A stretch of 64,000 nucleotides of DNA from Variovorax boronicumulans (GTDB lineage: Bacteria > Pseudomonadota > Gammaproteobacteria > Burkholderiales > Burkholderiaceae_C): NCBI RefSeq assembly GCF_029892485.1, contig NZ_JARXVG010000004.1, positions 62,001-126,000 on the forward strand. The letters run 5' to 3'. Below, in pieces: positions 36,505 through 43,275 of this stretch. A model generated the notes under the pieces. It was not told where the DNA came from, made no database searches, and saw only the letters and a list, made by a program, of their open reading frames with translations. Each line of letters begins with the position of its first letter. Position 1 is the first letter of the stretch. The translations under genes were made by a program, and so were the position numbers.

Positions 36505-37455
36505 ATGACATCGACTGCCCAACCATCCACCGCACCGACGCGCGCCCCGTCCGGCACGCGCCGCCCGCATTGGTGGTGGCACTACGAGGCGCCGACGCTG
36601 CTGCTCGCCGCCGCGCTGTACATCGCCTGGGCGGCGTTGCTGTGGTGGCATGCCGCGCTGCCGGGGTGGGCGCTGTTCCTGTTGGGCGCCTTTCTGGCGC
36701 AGCTGCATTCGTCGCTGCAGCACGAGAGCATCCACGCGATGCGCCACCTGCCGAAGTGGCTGCGCCATGCGGTGGTGTGGCCGCCGCTCAACCTGTGGCT
36801 GCCGTACCCGTTCTACAACCGCGGGCACAGTTCGCACCACGTCAATTTCCACCTCACGCATCCGGAACGCGACAACGAGAGCGCCTACCACTCGGCGCCC
36901 GCATGGGCGGGCTACGGACCGGTCTGGCGGTGGATCTACATGGCGAACCAGACGATCGCGTTCCGCGTCGTGCTGGGGCCTTTCCTGTGGCTGTGGAAGC
37001 TGGCGCATTTCGAATCCGCACAGCTGCTGTCGGGCAACTTCTCGCGGCTGCCGACCTGGGGCTGGCATGTGCTGAGCGTGGCCCCGGTGCTGTACTACGT
37101 GACGGTGATCTGCGGCATGGGGATCGGCGAGTACCTGCTGTACTTCGTCTATCCCGGGCTGATGCTGGGCTCGCTGCGCACCTTCACCGAGCACCGCTGG
37201 GCCGATACGCCGCACGAGCGCGTGGCCATCGTCGAGTCGAACCTGGTTTTCGGGCTGCTGTACCTGTTCAACAACCTGCACCACGTGCACCACCGCGCGC
37301 CGACGATGCCGTGGTACGAGATCCCGGTGTACTTCCGGCGGCACCGCGCGGAGGTGCTGGCTGCGAACGGCAATTTCTACTACCGGGGCTACGGCGAGAT
37401 CGTCAGGCGGCACCTGTTCAGGCCGGTGTTCACGCCGGTGCATCCGACGTGGTAG
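36505..37455 (+). CDS. Membrane fatty acid desaturase/hydroxylase
   Basis: A 316-residue di-iron membrane protein. Histidine clusters are HSSLQHESIH (68-77), RGHSSHHVNFHLTH (107-119) and NNLHHVHH near residue 260, the three-box pattern of the desaturase/hydroxylase superfamily. Hydrophobic helices flank them. ATG 36505 was preferred to TTG 36490; neither has a strong ribosome-binding site. It could equally be a carotenoid or alkane hydroxylase-type member. Its last 26 bases overlap the convergent WG-repeat gene. Confidence 0.82.
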   Translation: MTSTAQPSTAPTRAPSGTRRPHWWWHYEAPTLLLAAALYIAWAALLWWHAALPGWALFLLGAFLAQLHSSLQHESIHAMRHLPKWLRHAVVWPPLNLWLPYPFYNRGHSSHHVNFHLTHPERDNESAYHSAPAWAGYGPVWRWIYMANQTIAFRVVLGPFLWLWKLAHFESAQLLSGNFSRLPTWGWHVLSVAPVLYYVTVICGMGIGEYLLYFVYPGLMLGSLRTFTEHRWADTPHERVAIVESNLVFGLLYLFNNLHHVHHRAPTMPWYEIPVYFRRHRAEVLAANGNFYYRGYGEIVRRHLFRPVFTPVHPTW

Positions 37456-40366
37456 CGGGCAGCGCCAGCAGGCGTTGTGTCCACTCCCGGGCCTTGTCCT
37501 CGTCGAAGAGCGGGCTGTCGGGGTCACCGTAGAAGGTCTGCGCCAGAACCTCCATGCAGGCGCGCTGGCTCTCCAGGTTCTCCTCGCAGTCGTCGAGCGC
37601 GGCACCGGCGAGCAGCCAGCGCTCGGCGGCGGCAGCGTCTTCCGGCGCGCCCTGGCCTCGAAAGCGCATCCAGCCCAGTTCGTAGCAGGCCCAGCCCTGT
37701 TCGCGCTGGGTGCTGTCCTCCGCCACCTTCTGCCGCGCGTAGAGGGCTTCGGCATACAGGACGTTCACTTCCGCTTCTCCGTGGCCCTGTTCAGCCAGCG
37801 CCCCTGCATGCAGGCACAGCGTGCGGCCGAGCTGCATCGTGGCGCTGGTGTCGCCGGCTTCGTGGCCACGGCGGAAGTAGCCGATCGCGCGCGCGAGGTC
37901 GGGCTCCCCGGGTTCGCCGAGCTTGTGCGCCAGACCTAGGTTGTAGAGCGCCATCGTGTTGTTCTTCTCGGCGGCCAGTTCGTAGTGCCGCACGCCGCCT
38001 TCCAGGTCGCGCTCGCCACCCTCGCCTTCGCACAGCATGTAGCCGAGCTGGGCCTGCGTGGCGGCGTCGTCCGCGCCGCCATGGGCGATGGCGTGCAGCA
38101 GCCACGCGCGCCCCAGAGGGGCGTCGGCGCCGAGGCCCGCGGTGTCCCAGCGCAGCATCTTCGAGAGCTCGCACATCGCCACGGGCAGGCCGTCGGGTGA
38201 CGCGGTCGAGGGGGCGTCGCCGGGCGCGCGCACGCCGGCGGCGCGCGCCATCCAGCGCAGGGCTTCGCGCGGGTCGGCCTCGACGCCCTCGCCGTCGCGC
38301 AGATGGCGGGCCAGCTCGTAGGCGGCCTGCAGGTCGCCGGCGGCATGGCGCGCCGCCATGCGCTCGGCATGCGGCTGCTCGCGGCCGTCGGCATGCAGCC
38401 AGACGTACAGGCCGGTGTCGTTGCGCACAGCCTTCACCGGCTCGCCGGCGCCCCAGCGCTTGCACAGCTCCGAGCGGACCACCGCGGCAAGCCAGCCGTC
38501 CGAGACCGACACCGCGGTGGAGATCCACGGATAGGCCTGCGGGTGCAGCACGGCGCCATCGGCGCGCAGGACACCCACGGCGAGTTGTCCCTTCTCGACC
38601 TTCGCGCCGCGCGGCGCCGGATCGGCGACCAGCCAGCCGATGTCCTGCGTGCCCCAGGCCAGCGGCTGGAGCGTGCGATGTCGGCAAGGCACCAGCTCGC
38701 GGCCGGCGGCCACGTCGTAGATGCCGCGCAGCCACGGCGCGTTCTTCGCCGTGCGCCCGCCCTTGGACGCCACGCGCACCAGGTCGCGCCGGACCATGGC
38801 GTGGGCGCGCTCCTGGCCGCTCAGAGGTTCCAGGGTCTCGAACCGGCCGTAGTCGAAGGGCACGAGCACTCGGCCCTGCCCATCGATCAGACCGCACAGG
38901 CCGTCGGCCCGCTCCACGGCAAAGCGCTTCGGCCGGGTCTCGGCGCTGCGCTCGTTCGCCGGATCGTTGTCTTCGCTCGTCAGGAACTCGATGGGGTATT
39001 CCTCGAGCAGGTCGACCTGCTCGTAGATCGGCTCGATCACGACACGGCCTTGCGCATCGAGCAACCCGCTCTTGCCGTCGCGCATAGCTTCGAAGGCCTC
39101 CCAGTCGTGGCGCCACTGAAGGCTGTCGAAAGCCGGCGGCACGGCCCAGTCGCCGCCAGCGCGCACCAGCCCCCAGCCGCCCTCGTCGCCGCGCACGGGG
39201 GCGAGGCCGAAGGGCGTGAAGTCTTCAGCCTCTTCGAATTGCGGCGCAATGGCCCATTGGCCCTGCAGGTCGATGTACCCGATGCGCTCGCCCACGCGGG
39301 CGCGCACCCAGCCTTCGACAAAGCTCCAGACCTCGTCGACCGAGGGCGCCAGCAGCCAGCTGCCGTCGGCGCGCAGCAGGCCGATGTGGTCGCCGACCAG
39401 GGCCGTGGCGATGTCGTCCTCGAAGGCCCAGGCCTCGTCGAGCTGCGGTTCGAGCAGCACGCGCGGCGCTTCGGCGTCGGCGAGCAGCAGGCCGGAGCGC
39501 TCGCCCTGCGAGATCCAGAGCAGGCGCCGATCGCTCCCGCCGGCGTCGCGGATGTCGTCCCACGCAGGCTCGACCACGGTGGTGCGATGGCTGGTGCCGT
39601 CGTCGTCGTGCGCGATGCGCATCACGCCCCAGCGGCCGTCGACCTCGAAACGCCAGAGTTCGCCGCCCAGGTGGTTGTCCCAGTCGGGGCGCTCATGGCC
39701 GTCTTCGTCGTCGTCTTCTTCCGGCTCGAAATCGGCAAAGCGCTCGTCGCGCGGCGCCTCGTAGCCGTCGAAATACGGATGCGACAGGCCGCCGAAGCCG
39801 AACTGCCAGGCCCATGATTCCCAGTCCGCGAAGCGCTTGATGCCGAGCGCCACGTCCACGCCCGGGTGGTTGCCGCTGTCGATGCAGCGCCGCACCTCGG
39901 TCCATCGCTCGTTGCACTCGCGGCGGTTGCGTTCGATGAAGCCCTCGCCTTCGGCGTCGCCACCCATCCAGGACAGCTCGTCGAGGTTGGCGGAAAACCG
40001 CGGCGCGCTGTCGGCCGGCAGCTCGTCGATCAGCTCGGCCAGGTGCAGGGCCAGCGCCTCGAACTGCAGCGCGATCTGCGGCAGCGTGTGCAGCATCGGA
40101 TGCCGTTCCACGAAGGCGTGCAGCTGCCGGATGCGCGCAAGCGCGGCATGCGCATCGCTGGCGAGGTTGTCGGTTCCAGCGTCTCCGAAGACGCGCTGGT
40201 GGTCGATGGCGTCGCTGGCCGCGCCGTCGGCCAGCAGGAGCTGCCAGAGCACGGGGAAGTTGTTGTTGGCTTCGGCGATTTCGTTGGCCGATGCCTCTTC
40301 GCTGTCAGCGCCATCGCCGACGTCGGAAAGACGGTGTTCGAGATAGAGCCAGGAACGATTGCCCAT
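37430..40366 (-). CDS. Large WG-repeat and SEL1-repeat protein
   Basis: A 978-residue protein without a signal peptide. Residues about 1-230 form an alpha-helical domain with an acidic stretch (EPEEDDDEDGHE). About 235-620 contain WG-type beta repeats (RWGVMRIA, GWGLVRAGGDWAVPP, GLLDAQGRVVIEP, GLIDGQGRVLVPFDYG). About 680-950 contain SEL1/TPR-like repeats (AALYELARHLRDG-type, LGYMLCEGEGGERD, ALYNLGLAHKLGE, YELGWMRFRGQG). Both repeat classes mediate protein binding. The function is unknown; it overlaps the desaturase end by 26 bp. Confidence 0.75.
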   Translation of the reverse strand: MGNRSWLYLEHRLSDVGDGADSEEASANEIAEANNNFPVLWQLLLADGAASDAIDHQRVFGDAGTDNLASDAHAALARIRQLHAFVERHPMLHTLPQIALQFEALALHLAELIDELPADSAPRFSANLDELSWMGGDAEGEGFIERNRRECNERWTEVRRCIDSGNHPGVDVALGIKRFADWESWAWQFGFGGLSHPYFDGYEAPRDERFADFEPEEDDDEDGHERPDWDNHLGGELWRFEVDGRWGVMRIAHDDDGTSHRTTVVEPAWDDIRDAGGSDRRLLWISQGERSGLLLADAEAPRVLLEPQLDEAWAFEDDIATALVGDHIGLLRADGSWLLAPSVDEVWSFVEGWVRARVGERIGYIDLQGQWAIAPQFEEAEDFTPFGLAPVRGDEGGWGLVRAGGDWAVPPAFDSLQWRHDWEAFEAMRDGKSGLLDAQGRVVIEPIYEQVDLLEEYPIEFLTSEDNDPANERSAETRPKRFAVERADGLCGLIDGQGRVLVPFDYGRFETLEPLSGQERAHAMVRRDLVRVASKGGRTAKNAPWLRGIYDVAAGRELVPCRHRTLQPLAWGTQDIGWLVADPAPRGAKVEKGQLAVGVLRADGAVLHPQAYPWISTAVSVSDGWLAAVVRSELCKRWGAGEPVKAVRNDTGLYVWLHADGREQPHAERMAARHAAGDLQAAYELARHLRDGEGVEADPREALRWMARAAGVRAPGDAPSTASPDGLPVAMCELSKMLRWDTAGLGADAPLGRAWLLHAIAHGGADDAATQAQLGYMLCEGEGGERDLEGGVRHYELAAEKNNTMALYNLGLAHKLGEPGEPDLARAIGYFRRGHEAGDTSATMQLGRTLCLHAGALAEQGHGEAEVNVLYAEALYARQKVAEDSTQREQGWACYELGWMRFRGQGAPEDAAAAERWLLAGAALDDCEENLESQRACMEVLAQTFYGDPDSPLFDEDKAREWTQRLLALPATTSDAPA

Positions 40367-40438: not shown

Positions 40439-41347
40439 TCACATGACCGCGGAAGGCTGCACCAGGAATTGCGTGACCTGTGCAAGCACGGTCTCTTCCT
40501 TGAGGATGCGGCGGTGGCCCCAGCCCTGCGTGGCGACGAGCTGCGCGTGGGGAATCGCATCGCGATAAGCCTCGCCATCGGCAAAGCGGTTCACGCGGTC
40601 CTCGCGGTCATGAACGATCAGCGCCGGCTGCGCGATGCGCGGGCCGGCGAGCGCGGGTTCGAACTGCGGCATCAGCACGCCTTCGCGCGCCTCGAACATC
40701 CGCTGCATCGCGGCGCGCGTCTGCTCGCTGAGGCCGAAGGCATGCGCGAAGTAGCGCGTGTATTCGCGTGGCGAAGCGGGCGGTGCGAGCAGCACGATGC
40801 GCTCGGCCGGCAGCCCGCGCCCTGCGGCGTAGGCAAGCGCATTGGCCCCCAGCGAATGCGCGACCACGGCGCGCAACGCACGGCCGTCCGCGGCGAGCCG
40901 GGCGGTAACGTAATCGATGGCGCGCGCGAACTGCGCGCCGTTGGTAGCCATGCCTTCGCTGCGGCCGTGCGCCGGCAGCTCGAGCAGCACCGGCCGAAGC
41001 CCCGCCGCAGCCAACGCCTGCGCAAGCGGCAGCATCTGGCCCGCATGCCCGCCCCAGCCATGCACCAGCAGCACGAGCGGCGCGGATTCGGCCCCCGAGT
41101 CCTGCGCCGCCAGGTGGTAGATGCCGACGCTCGCATCCTCGAAGGACCAGGCCTCGTGGCGCCAGTCGGCACCGGGGTGCTGGCCGCGGTACAGCCACTT
41201 GGGCGGCAGCGGCGTGCCGAACACCCGATAGGCCGCGCGCACGCCCAGCGCGGGCCAGAGGCGTTGCGATGCGCCGAGGCCGAAGCGCATCGCGCGCATC
41301 AGCCGGCTGGCGCCGTAGTAGGTCGTGGGGGCGGAAGTGCTCGTCAT
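40439..41347 (-). CDS. Alpha/beta hydrolase in a TetR-controlled operon
   Basis: A 302-residue hydrolase. VHGWGGHAGQ is the oxyanion region, VAHSLGANA the nucleophile elbow, VHDREDRVN the acid region and GWGHRRIL the catalytic histidine. AGGAG stands upstream of ATG 41347. It follows a 37-codon membrane peptide gene by 20 bp, and both lie downstream of an operator matching that of the adjacent TetR gene. It is probably an esterase or acyl hydrolase; the substrate is unknown. Confidence 0.8.
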   Translation of the reverse strand: MTSTSAPTTYYGASRLMRAMRFGLGASQRLWPALGVRAAYRVFGTPLPPKWLYRGQHPGADWRHEAWSFEDASVGIYHLAAQDSGAESAPLVLLVHGWGGHAGQMLPLAQALAAAGLRPVLLELPAHGRSEGMATNGAQFARAIDYVTARLAADGRALRAVVAHSLGANALAYAAGRGLPAERIVLLAPPASPREYTRYFAHAFGLSEQTRAAMQRMFEAREGVLMPQFEPALAGPRIAQPALIVHDREDRVNRFADGEAYRDAIPHAQLVATQGWGHRRILKEETVLAQVTQFLVQPSAVM

Positions 41348-41367
41348 TTGCAGGGACTCCTGGCGGC

Positions 41368-41481
41368 TCAGTACCAGACCCAGTCCCGGTTGCTGCGGGG
41401 CAGGCTGCGAAGCGTGTCGCGGGCGGCTTCGACGCCAAGGGCGACGGCATAGATGGCAAGGCAAAGGGCAATGATCAGCAT
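41368..41481 (-). CDS. 37-residue membrane peptide
   Basis: A short gene encoding a peptide that begins MLIIALCLAIYAVALGVEAA, a single transmembrane helix, followed by an Arg-containing stretch and ending in SNRDWVWY. AGGAG lies about 8 bases upstream of ATG 41481. The operator-like palindrome 41499-41514 lies just upstream of the ribosome-binding site. Good translation signals, codon use and its position as first gene of the hydrolase operon support a real gene. No function is known to me. Confidence 0.65.
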   Translation of the reverse strand: MLIIALCLAIYAVALGVEAARDTLRSLPRSNRDWVWY

Positions 41482-41498
41482 GACGCTTCTCCTATTTA

Positions 41499-41514
41499 TC
41501 GCACGACTGTGCGA
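41499..41514. promoter_or_regulatory. Putative TetR operator 1 (hydrolase operon)
   Basis: TCGCACGACTGTGCGA is a palindrome with 6-bp arms around a GACT centre, upstream of the 37-codon gene. The same sequence recurs, inverted, at the TetR promoter (42172-42187). Confidence 0.7.
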
Positions 41515-41558
41515 AATTCTGACAAAGAAAGATGAGGCAAATCCACCTGCCCGATGGC

Positions 41559-42161
41559 TCAGGCGAGGTAACTGGAAAGGAGCCGCTGCCAGGTCTGCGT
41601 AGCCCTGTCGGCGGTGTGCGGGTCGCGCAGGAAACGCGCGTCGTGCAGCTGGTTCATCATGATTCCGTTGATCTCGCTGACCAGCTGTGCGGGTTCGGTG
41701 TCGGCCTTAAGTTCGCCGGCCTCGATGGCGAGCGTCACGGTGCGGCGCAGGGCCGCGCGCCAGCGCGTGATCTCCTCGAGGAGCACATCGCGCAGCTCGC
41801 CTTCGCGGTCGTCGAACTCGAAGGCGCCGGCCACGTAGAGGCAGCCGGTCCGGGCCTCGACGTCGCGGGTGCGGGCGATCCAGCGGGCCACGATGTCGTT
41901 CAGGCGCGCGAGGCCCTTGGGCTTCTGCATGGCCGGCACGAATACATCGGCCAGGAAGCCACGGCCGTACTCTTCGATGACTGCCTTCTGCAGCGCCTCG
42001 CGCGAACCCACGCGGGAAAACACGCCGCTTTTGGAGAGCCCCAGGCGGCTCGCGATGACCTGCAACGAGATCGCTTCCAGGCCTTCGGCCAGCGCGAGGT
42101 CCAGCGCGGCGCCGACGATGGCGGCGCGGGTGAGTTCGCTTTTCTGGGTCTTGGCGTCCAT
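41559..42161 (-). CDS. TetR-family transcriptional repressor
   Basis: A 200-residue TetR regulator with the N-terminal HTH at about 32-57 (VIASRLGLSKSGVFSRVGSR) and a helical ligand-binding domain. It is transcribed in the same direction as, and directly upstream of, the small peptide and hydrolase genes. Palindromes of matching sequence lie before its own start and before the peptide gene, suggesting autorepression and control of the hydrolase operon. The ligand is unknown. Confidence 0.87.
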   Translation of the reverse strand: MDAKTQKSELTRAAIVGAALDLALAEGLEAISLQVIASRLGLSKSGVFSRVGSREALQKAVIEEYGRGFLADVFVPAMQKPKGLARLNDIVARWIARTRDVEARTGCLYVAGAFEFDDREGELRDVLLEEITRWRAALRRTVTLAIEAGELKADTEPAQLVSEINGIMMNQLHDARFLRDPHTADRATQTWQRLLSSYLA

Positions 42162-42171
42162 GCCGCAACTT

Positions 42172-42187
42172 TAGCACAGTCGTGCGA
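42172..42187. promoter_or_regulatory. Putative TetR operator 2 (autoregulation)
   Basis: TAGCACAGTCGTGCGA lies 11 bases before the TetR start codon. Its reverse complement shares 15 of 16 positions with operator 1 (TCGCACGACTGTGC common to both). Confidence 0.7.
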
Positions 42188-42330
42188 AATCACAAGCGCA
42201 AGGCAAAAGCATGACGTATAGATGTTTTGCTCATGTGAAACCAACAAACGCATCGTTCCCTGCATAAGCGCTTCTGCAGAGAATCGCCGGTCGGGCCCAC
42301 TCCGGGGTCCGGATGACACCTCGGCGCCAG

Positions 42331-43275
42331 ATGAACTTCCAACAACTGCGCTCGGTACGCGAGGCCGTTCGTTGCGGCTTCAACCTGACCGAAGTCGCTC
42401 ACACCCTTCACACCTCGCAGCCCGGCGTGAGCCGGCAGATCCGCGAACTCGAGGAGGAGCTCGGCATCGAGCTCTTCGTGCGCGCCGGCAAGCGGCTCAC
42501 GGGCCTCACCGAGCCGGGCGGCCACGTGCTGCCGATCATCGAGCGCATGCTGCTGGAGAGCAGCAACCTGCGGCATGCGGGGCAGGAGTTCGTCGCGCAG
42601 CAAAGCGGGCTGCTCTCCATTGCGGCCACGCACTCGCAGGCGCGCTATGCGATGCCGGTGGCCGTGCAGGAATTTCGCGCGCAGTTCCCGAACGTGAAAC
42701 TGCACCTGCACCAGGGCTCGCCCAAGCAGATCGCGCAGATGCTGATCGACGGCGAGGCCGACGTGGGCATCGCCACCGAGGCGCTGGGCGACTACCCGCA
42801 ACTGGTCGCCCTGCCCTGCTACCGCTGGACGCATTCGGTGATCGTGCCGCCGGGCCATCCGCTGCTGGACGCACCACTGTCGCTGGAGGCGCTCACGCGC
42901 TATCCGCTGATCACCTACGACACGGGCTTCACCGGCCGATCGCGCATCGACGAAGCATTCGAGGCGCGCGGGCTGCAGCCCAACATCGTGCTCGCCGCGA
43001 TGGATGCCGACGTGATCAAGACCTACGTGACCCTGGGCCTTGGCGTAGGCATCGTGGCCGGCGTGGCCTATGAGGCGGAGCGCGACACGCAGCTGCGCGC
43101 GATCGATGCGGGGCGCCTGTTCGGCATCAACCTCACCAAGCTCGCGGTGCGCCGCGGCAACTATCTGCGCAAGTACGTCTATGCCTTCATCGAGTCATTC
43201 GCGCCGACCCTGACGCGTGCCATCGTCGAGAAGGCGCTGGGGGACGAGGTCAAGGCGTCCCACTACGAAATCTAG
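42331..43275 (+). CDS. CysB-type LysR regulator
   Basis: A 314-residue LysR protein of the CysB/Cbl branch, starting MNFQQLRSVREAVRCGFNLT, with the HTH at about 20-45 (VAHTLHTSQPGVSRQI). Segments YPLITYDTGFTGR and VIKTYVTLGLGVGIVA match the sulfate/N-acetylserine-binding domain of CysB. ATG 42331 was chosen by family alignment over ATG 42313. It stands alone, so its targets (sulfur assimilation or sulfonate use) are presumably elsewhere; the rhodanese gene is the only nearby sulfur-linked gene. Confidence 0.85.
   Translation: MNFQQLRSVREAVRCGFNLTEVAHTLHTSQPGVSRQIRELEEELGIELFVRAGKRLTGLTEPGGHVLPIIERMLLESSNLRHAGQEFVAQQSGLLSIAATHSQARYAMPVAVQEFRAQFPNVKLHLHQGSPKQIAQMLIDGEADVGIATEALGDYPQLVALPCYRWTHSVIVPPGHPLLDAPLSLEALTRYPLITYDTGFTGRSRIDEAFEARGLQPNIVLAAMDADVIKTYVTLGLGVGIVAGVAYEAERDTQLRAIDAGRLFGINLTKLAVRRGNYLRKYVYAFIESFAPTLTRAIVEKALGDEVKASHYEI

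Follow-up and report, generated by a model that had tools for sequence, protein, structure and literature searches.

Paired palindromic operators and a conserved 37-codon peptide gene in a candidate TetR regulon of Variovorax

Two matching palindromic sites, one ahead of the gene of a TetR-family regulator and the other ahead of genes for a 37-residue peptide and an alpha/beta hydrolase, were found in a window of 64 kb (the whole stretch of DNA that was analyzed) from a 6.67 Mb genome whose closest orthologues, by TetR identity, are from Variovorax. The compact TetR regulon that the original prediction had drawn from these sites was strongly supported by phylogenetic footprinting, in that both sites were present beside 80/80 TetR orthologues (the best 80 of 146 found) and had a near-invariant core. 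We assign a probability of about 0.75 to the whole reading, in which an autoregulated TetR repressor controls a peptide-hydrolase operon, with an acyl-type inducer, a hydrolase of esters or thioesters, and a peptide that resides in the membrane. The sites, their conservation and placement, the selection on the peptide frame, the hydrolase family and the gene order are the sequence-based parts of this reading.

Locus layout and the operator pair

All three genes are on the minus strand. In the order of transcription, operator 2 (TAGCACAGTCGTGCGA; 42172-42187), a palindrome by sequence that recurs in relatives, comes first and is separated by 10 nt from the ATG of the TetR gene (41559-42161; 200 aa, recognized as an ORF and by Pfam, with a TetR_C_13 C-terminal domain). 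Operator 1 (TCGCACGACTGTGCGA; 41499-41514), which carries 12/12 of the fixed positions, is located 44 nt past the TetR stop and 17 nt ahead of the peptide ATG. The peptide gene (41368-41481; 37 aa, one hydrophobic segment, MLIIALCLAIYAVALGVEAARDTLRSLPRSNRDWVWY; recognized as an ORF and by conservation) ends 20 nt before the ATG of the hydrolase gene (40439-41347; 302 aa, recognized as an ORF, by Pfam, by its predicted fold and by invariant residues). Both palindromes are binding candidates, with no strand assigned. As a whole, the candidate unit spans 40439-42187, with the hydrolase at one end and site 2 at the other, which is more than the span described at first.

Two neighbors flank this unit. 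A CysB-family LysR regulator gene (42331-43275, plus strand; NCBIfam PRK12684, 467 bits) is divergent from TetR, and was rejected as a member of the unit because it was present in only 26/80 orthologous loci. On the same strand as the hydrolase, 72 nt 3′ of it, is a gene for a 978-aa protein with WG and Sel1 repeats (37430-40366, minus strand), which was found in only 3/80 of these loci.

Palindromes had been predicted ahead of both the peptide gene and the TetR gene, and both were located there. The 15-of-16-base match between them in opposite orientation was likewise reproduced (11/16 in direct orientation), but is partly luck, because the spacer across relatives mostly obeys no more than R-N-N-Y, and within a given locus its sequence is usually not shared by both sites. 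Within the window, the 12 fixed positions were matched 12/12 once and at ≥11/12 three times, one of which was elsewhere (25810). An order-1 Markov control (100 windows) gave a mean of 0.70 places at ≥11/12, and 0/100 windows had two such places within 700 bp. Looser searches gave counts at chance level and were dropped as evidence: a very loose palindrome (≤3 mismatches) occurred at 69 places in the window versus 90 expected, showing no enrichment, and TNGCACNNNNGTGCNA occurred at six places genome-wide, the same count as its reversed control. Exact matches to TNGCACRGTCGTGCNA, with the spacer taken from both sites, were confined to this pair in the entire genome. Across the genome, places with ≤2 mismatches numbered 39 versus 18 for the reversed control; beside a near-match on contig C14 of the same genome, no related gene was recognized.

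The gene-proximal half of operator 2 overlaps a −10-like TGCTAAA on the minus strand that is kept in relatives. A scan of 41340-42340 returned no consensus sigma-70 promoter at either site, so that we can only infer a TetR promoter at operator 2. Terminator-like matches near the two sites were at about chance (2 versus 1.0 expected).

Conservation of the sites and of the peptide gene

The 80 orthologous loci (the best 80 of 146 TetR relatives in public genomes, 72-99% identity) came from genera that include Variovorax, Polaromonas, Acidovorax, Hydrogenophaga, Curvibacter, Rhodoferax, Ramlibacter, and Xenophilus. A match of ≥10/12 was seen in 80/80 upstream and 80/80 downstream windows, versus 0.6% (upstream) and 1.5% (downstream) of random windows of equal size from the same loci; this comparison across orthologous loci is the decisive control for the candidate site pair. 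Upstream sites started 26-35 bp ahead of the TetR start, and downstream sites 24-222 bp past the end of the TetR match, in all of these best 80 loci. Across them, GCAC and GTGC were nearly invariant and were preceded by TTT in nearly all, with the outer flanks varying more. The conserved TGCTAAA was under the right half of the upstream site, and the downstream site was the more perfect palindrome, a contrast that would be expected if TetR repressed its own gene moderately and the operon more tightly. A survey of the genus (37 genomes, including the source genome) recovered a close TetR orthologue (74-100% identity) in 24 and only a paralogue of 41-47% identity in 13, such that the system is patchy in the genus.

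In 73 of the best 80 loci, the downstream site was followed by the peptide gene, always with an ATG start, and 58 of these 73 ORFs were exactly 37 codons long. The peptides have one membrane segment and a P-x-x-N-x-D tail, and the pattern [LIV]P-x-x-N-x-[DE]-[WMF]-[VIF]-[WFY]-[YF] ends 71 of the 73. Among the five closest peptide sequences, pS was 0.139 and pN 0.010 (ratio 0.07), and among 31 Variovorax sequences pS was 0.409 and pN 0.194; across all 1543 pairs with pS < 0.7 the ratio was weak, at 0.65. The two other reading frames had no such excess of pS, and third codon positions were the most variable. Constraint was stronger on the tail (pN 0.09) than on the hydrophobic segment (pN 0.28). 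This purifying selection on the frame, together with its recurrence across loci, bears out the small gene that had been predicted, and the 37-codon ORF, although easily overlooked, is very likely a real gene.

Pfam and NCBIfam scans of the peptide and its relatives gave no significant match; one sequence of the family had a weak FeoB_associated match (E 0.18, 12.5 bits versus 27). The plasmid collection contained no match to the peptide. Literature searches on the tail strings, and on the combined features of this locus, found no paper. Judged by these literature searches and family scans alone, the peptide family appears undescribed. Basic residues are present in the C-terminal 20 residues of the peptide and absent at residues 2-4, a placement of charge that suggests a cytoplasmic tail.

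The regulator, the hydrolase and their relatives

The TetR protein matched TetR_C_13 (106.7 bits versus 27), and its helix-turn-helix matched TetR_N at 22.1 bits, under the cut-off of 24 (E 1.3e-4). Its model aligned with the nearest solved structure, 2hyj from Streptomyces coelicolor, over 191 residues (Z 23.3, rmsd 2.2); to our knowledge, no function is known for 2hyj. In a tree of 63 TetR proteins (rooted for drawing only), 44 operator-linked TetRs were on one side of a branch with 100/100 support, which split them from the paralogues that precede an acyl-CoA dehydrogenase and with which they did not group. Of 14 such paralogues, 13 clustered (98/80) and one (L036) branched apart; GAACGAYCGTTC sites were present at three of these paralogues. 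At L121:3414-4109 a TetR paralogue of 43% identity precedes an acyl-CoA dehydrogenase gene, with GAACGACCGTTC ahead of the paralogue gene. It and the other acyl-CoA-dehydrogenase-linked paralogues may be FadP, the TetR-type regulator that, according to PMC5343134, controls fatty acid degradation in Ralstonia, Burkholderia, and Comamonadaceae.

The hydrolase was recovered in 77 of the best 80 loci (partial in L120), and in the other three (L046, L090, and L097) the contig stops short of its position. It has an Abhydrolase_1 domain (50.2 bits versus a cut-off of 25.8) and a predicted alpha/beta hydrolase fold (mean pLDDT 93.7). S165, D250, and H278, invariant among 37 aligned hydrolases, would be its catalytic nucleophile, acid and histidine. 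The model resembles esterases and lipases, with the phospholipase PlaF (6i8w) as its top match by E-value. However, 1716 PDB structures matched at E ≤ 0.001 and share the fold, so that the matches are informative for class and do not fix the substrate. By sequence, the nearest solved relatives were monoacylglycerol lipases, weakly (E 2e-5). For the window hydrolase, hydropathy gave no strong membrane segment (best N-terminal Kyte-Doolittle 19-residue mean 0.55).

Farther out, five genomes of the class have TetRs of 26-40% identity adjoining hydrolase relatives of 23-36% identity, and half-sites of mixed type (for example, GAACGACCGTGC) ahead of these distant TetRs; this adjacency suggests that the TetR-hydrolase pairing is old. 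No such peptide was seen in the gap between TetR and hydrolase at three of these distant loci (L253, L254, and L258).

We surveyed 150 genomes of the same family and inspected 40 regions around sites. The pattern TTNGCACRNNYGTGCNA was present in 67/150 genomes, and pairs of sites 624-735 bp apart in at least 21/150. The peptide profile matched in 28/150 genomes at E ≤ 0.01; in 16 of these E was ≤ 2e-6, and the weaker matches were counted only where the locus was inspected. A TetR relative (50-78% identity) was present in 22 of the 40 regions, of which 14 had both sites by pattern, 18 a tail-bearing ORF behind the site, and 21 the hydrolase; one locus (L215; TetR 72%) had both sites and the peptide, with no hydrolase match in its 5-kb region. 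Among the 18 regions in which TetR was absent, six had sites preceding an orthologous acyl-CoA dehydrogenase and 12 had no match to the query proteins.

At the six, a GCACG-NN-CGTGC site is located a few tens of bases 5′ of the acyl-CoA dehydrogenase gene (L209, L225, L226, L227, L229, and L230), the products being orthologous (392 aa in L229; 80-87% identity for the other five). In the source genome, a near-match site likewise precedes an acyl-CoA dehydrogenase orthologue of 81% identity (L008; contig 12, ~221622-221639). Either this TetR has a further target here, or the sites belong to a different regulator that recognizes a similar sequence. The latter is likely since, among the matches listed, each of the six genomes had one exact site and no pair, and on this ground we left them out of the regulon.

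In a second family of the order, the site TTTCGCACRNNYGTGCGA was found in 7/97 genomes, and all seven loci had a TetR of 51-57% identity and a short tail-bearing ORF behind the site. The G770 ORF is short and lacks any clear hydrophobic segment; that of G738 has a longer C-terminus; and the upstream sites of G043 and G736 are one base off the spacer rule. The hydrolase was present in only two of the seven (G736 and G769), leaving five with TetR, sites and peptide (one atypical) and no hydrolase; in G043, G764, and G738 the next clear gene runs the other way. Behind the peptide ORF, at the place of the hydrolase, G770 has a thiolase gene (L273:2145-3326) and G775 a DsbA-like gene (L274:1694-2299). 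Conversely, in all five Hydrogenophaga and in two Variovorax loci of the best 80, the site is directly ahead of the hydrolase and the peptide is absent. Therefore, peptide and hydrolase are separable. The proposed link among TetR, peptide and hydrolase held in that sites and gene order recur, but not as a fixed trio.

Profile searches extended the tail family further. Across the class (274 genomes, E ≤ 0.01), profile A1 matched four genomes, namely the source genome and three with weak partial matches, which were taken as chance and not as peptide homologues. Across the order, profile A5 matched 5/300 genomes at E ≤ 0.001 (the source genome, G424, G043, and two of a third family). Profile A6 matched 8/97 genomes of the second family, comprising six of the seven site-bearing genomes (G775 was missed), G792, which has a TetR of 54% identity and no such ORF among those listed, and G783, at whose locus nothing related was seen. 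In the third family, which is probably Burkholderia-like, A6 matched 17/200 genomes at E ≤ 0.001. An NmrA-like gene was present in 13 of these 17 loci at E < 1e-40, with only a short end piece in two more, and TetR was found in 0/17. ORFs were listed for 14 of the 17; seven had the exact AIPDSNDDF near their end and the rest variants, and most had a longer N-terminus than the window peptide. AIPDSNDDF-like ORFs were noted beside the NmrA-like NAD(P)-binding gene at L279, L280, L283-L287, L289, L292-L295, and L297, the last having no AIPDSNDDF-like ORF among those listed; at L280 and L283 the ORF begins right behind the TGA that ends the NmrA-like gene. Homology of these ORFs to the window peptide is plausible, but the comparison covers just about 35 residues.

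Proposed regulation and its alternatives

We propose that a TetR dimer would bind two operators of 16-20 bp (TTTCGCAC-R-N-N-Y-GTGCGA or -GTGCTAAA), one over TetR's own promoter and the other just 5′ of a bicistronic peptide-hydrolase unit, and that expression of both units would be low while TetR is bound. TetR would be released by an inducer, for which a hydrophobic acyl compound (fatty acid, acyl-CoA or similar) is the most likely candidate, and the hydrolase would then cleave an ester or thioester of the inducer's class of molecule. The peptide would insert into the inner membrane, its P-x-x-N-x-D tail facing the cytoplasm, and would have an accessory or regulatory role as a small membrane protein without being an obligatory partner for the hydrolase. 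Our inferences concern repression, the inducer, the substrate, and the topology and function of the peptide.

The acyl-type inducer is proposed mainly on kinship with TetRs of acyl metabolism, and the acyl ligand is perhaps indicated by relatives, specifically the 43% paralogue before an acyl-CoA dehydrogenase and the lipase/esterase-like hydrolase model. The conserved Cys107 would be equally suited to an electrophile sensor, and Gly106-Cys107 (counted from the start Met) is invariant in 15 aligned TetRs. It is possible, albeit doubtful, that this TetR senses electrophiles or oxidants via that cysteine and that the hydrolase serves to detoxify reactive esters. NemR relies on a cysteine of this type, and both NemR (4yze) and the Rhodobacter TetR 3bru were among the structural matches. 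However, these matches reflect a common fold, and the same Gly-Cys occurs in the acyl-CoA-dehydrogenase-linked paralogue, with a Gly-Cys also in 2hyj, so that the pair is family-wide.

The peptide might anchor the hydrolase to the membrane or serve as its regulatory subunit, the two forming a pair like a split PlaF; this is rather unlikely, and would be compatible with the regulatory part of the preferred reading, the control by TetR. In most of the 80 loci, peptide and hydrolase are neighbors behind a single operator, PlaF is the best Foldseek match of a hydrolase that itself has no strong membrane segment by hydropathy, and PlaF is described as a single-pass membrane protein (PMC9132575). 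Against such a pairing, TetR, sites and peptide occur without the hydrolase in 5/7 second-family loci and in L215, and the hydrolase occurs without the peptide in the Hydrogenophaga and Variovorax loci above. Being short and hydrophobic, with one membrane segment right behind an operator, the peptide might instead be a membrane-damaging, toxin-like product silenced by TetR. We consider this improbable, given that the tail, not the hydrophobic segment, is the most conserved part and that an enzyme gene comes next in most loci. Type I toxin peptides, as a class, are toxic when expressed and are silenced by an antisense RNA. The short spacing to the hydrolase start would also suit tuning of hydrolase translation by the ORF, as a leader peptide or an upstream ORF, yet selection acts at the amino-acid level and the ORF persists without the hydrolase, which makes this explanation highly improbable.

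Compared with known systems, this TetR regulon is of an ordinary type. It shares fold, domain and the placement of sites before its own gene and before an adjacent operon with local TetR_C_13 regulators, of which 2hyj is the nearest, and differs from them in operator class (TTTCGCAC-RNNY-GTGCGA) and target genes. FadP, as described in PMC5343134, is the same kind of regulator from the same lineages; relative to the paralogues taken here as putative FadP, the TetRs studied here are on a separate branch, have GCAC instead of GAAC half-sites, and are beside a hydrolase and a peptide. PlaF, a membrane phospholipase A1 of Pseudomonas aeruginosa, has the alpha/beta hydrolase fold in common with the window hydrolase, at 19% identity (TM-score 0.56, rmsd 10.4), but has its own membrane helix (PMC9132575), unlike the latter, which lacks a strong one. 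What merits follow-up is the peptide family and the fact that it occurs independently of the hydrolase.

Small single-pass bacterial membrane proteins have fewer than 50 residues and one hydrophobic segment, and are encoded in operons. The peptide is like them, and differs in belonging to a P-x-x-N-x-D tail family that has no significant Pfam or NCBIfam match. The enzymes seen in loci with tails of this type were an alpha/beta hydrolase, a thiolase-like, a DsbA-like, and an NmrA-like protein. Tentatively, the tail could mark widespread, undescribed tiny single-pass membrane proteins that serve or recruit different cytoplasmic enzymes under lineage-specific control, of which the TetR sites would be one form. 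Because each of the two genes persists in loci that lack the other, peptide function is testable alone. For a soil genus, the candidate operators mark out a regulon sharply enough to be tested, and their conservation and that of the ORF speak for the reality of a 37-codon gene that has no significant match in two reference libraries. If the tails from other lineages are truly homologous, they would constitute an overlooked family of small proteins adjoining metabolic enzymes.
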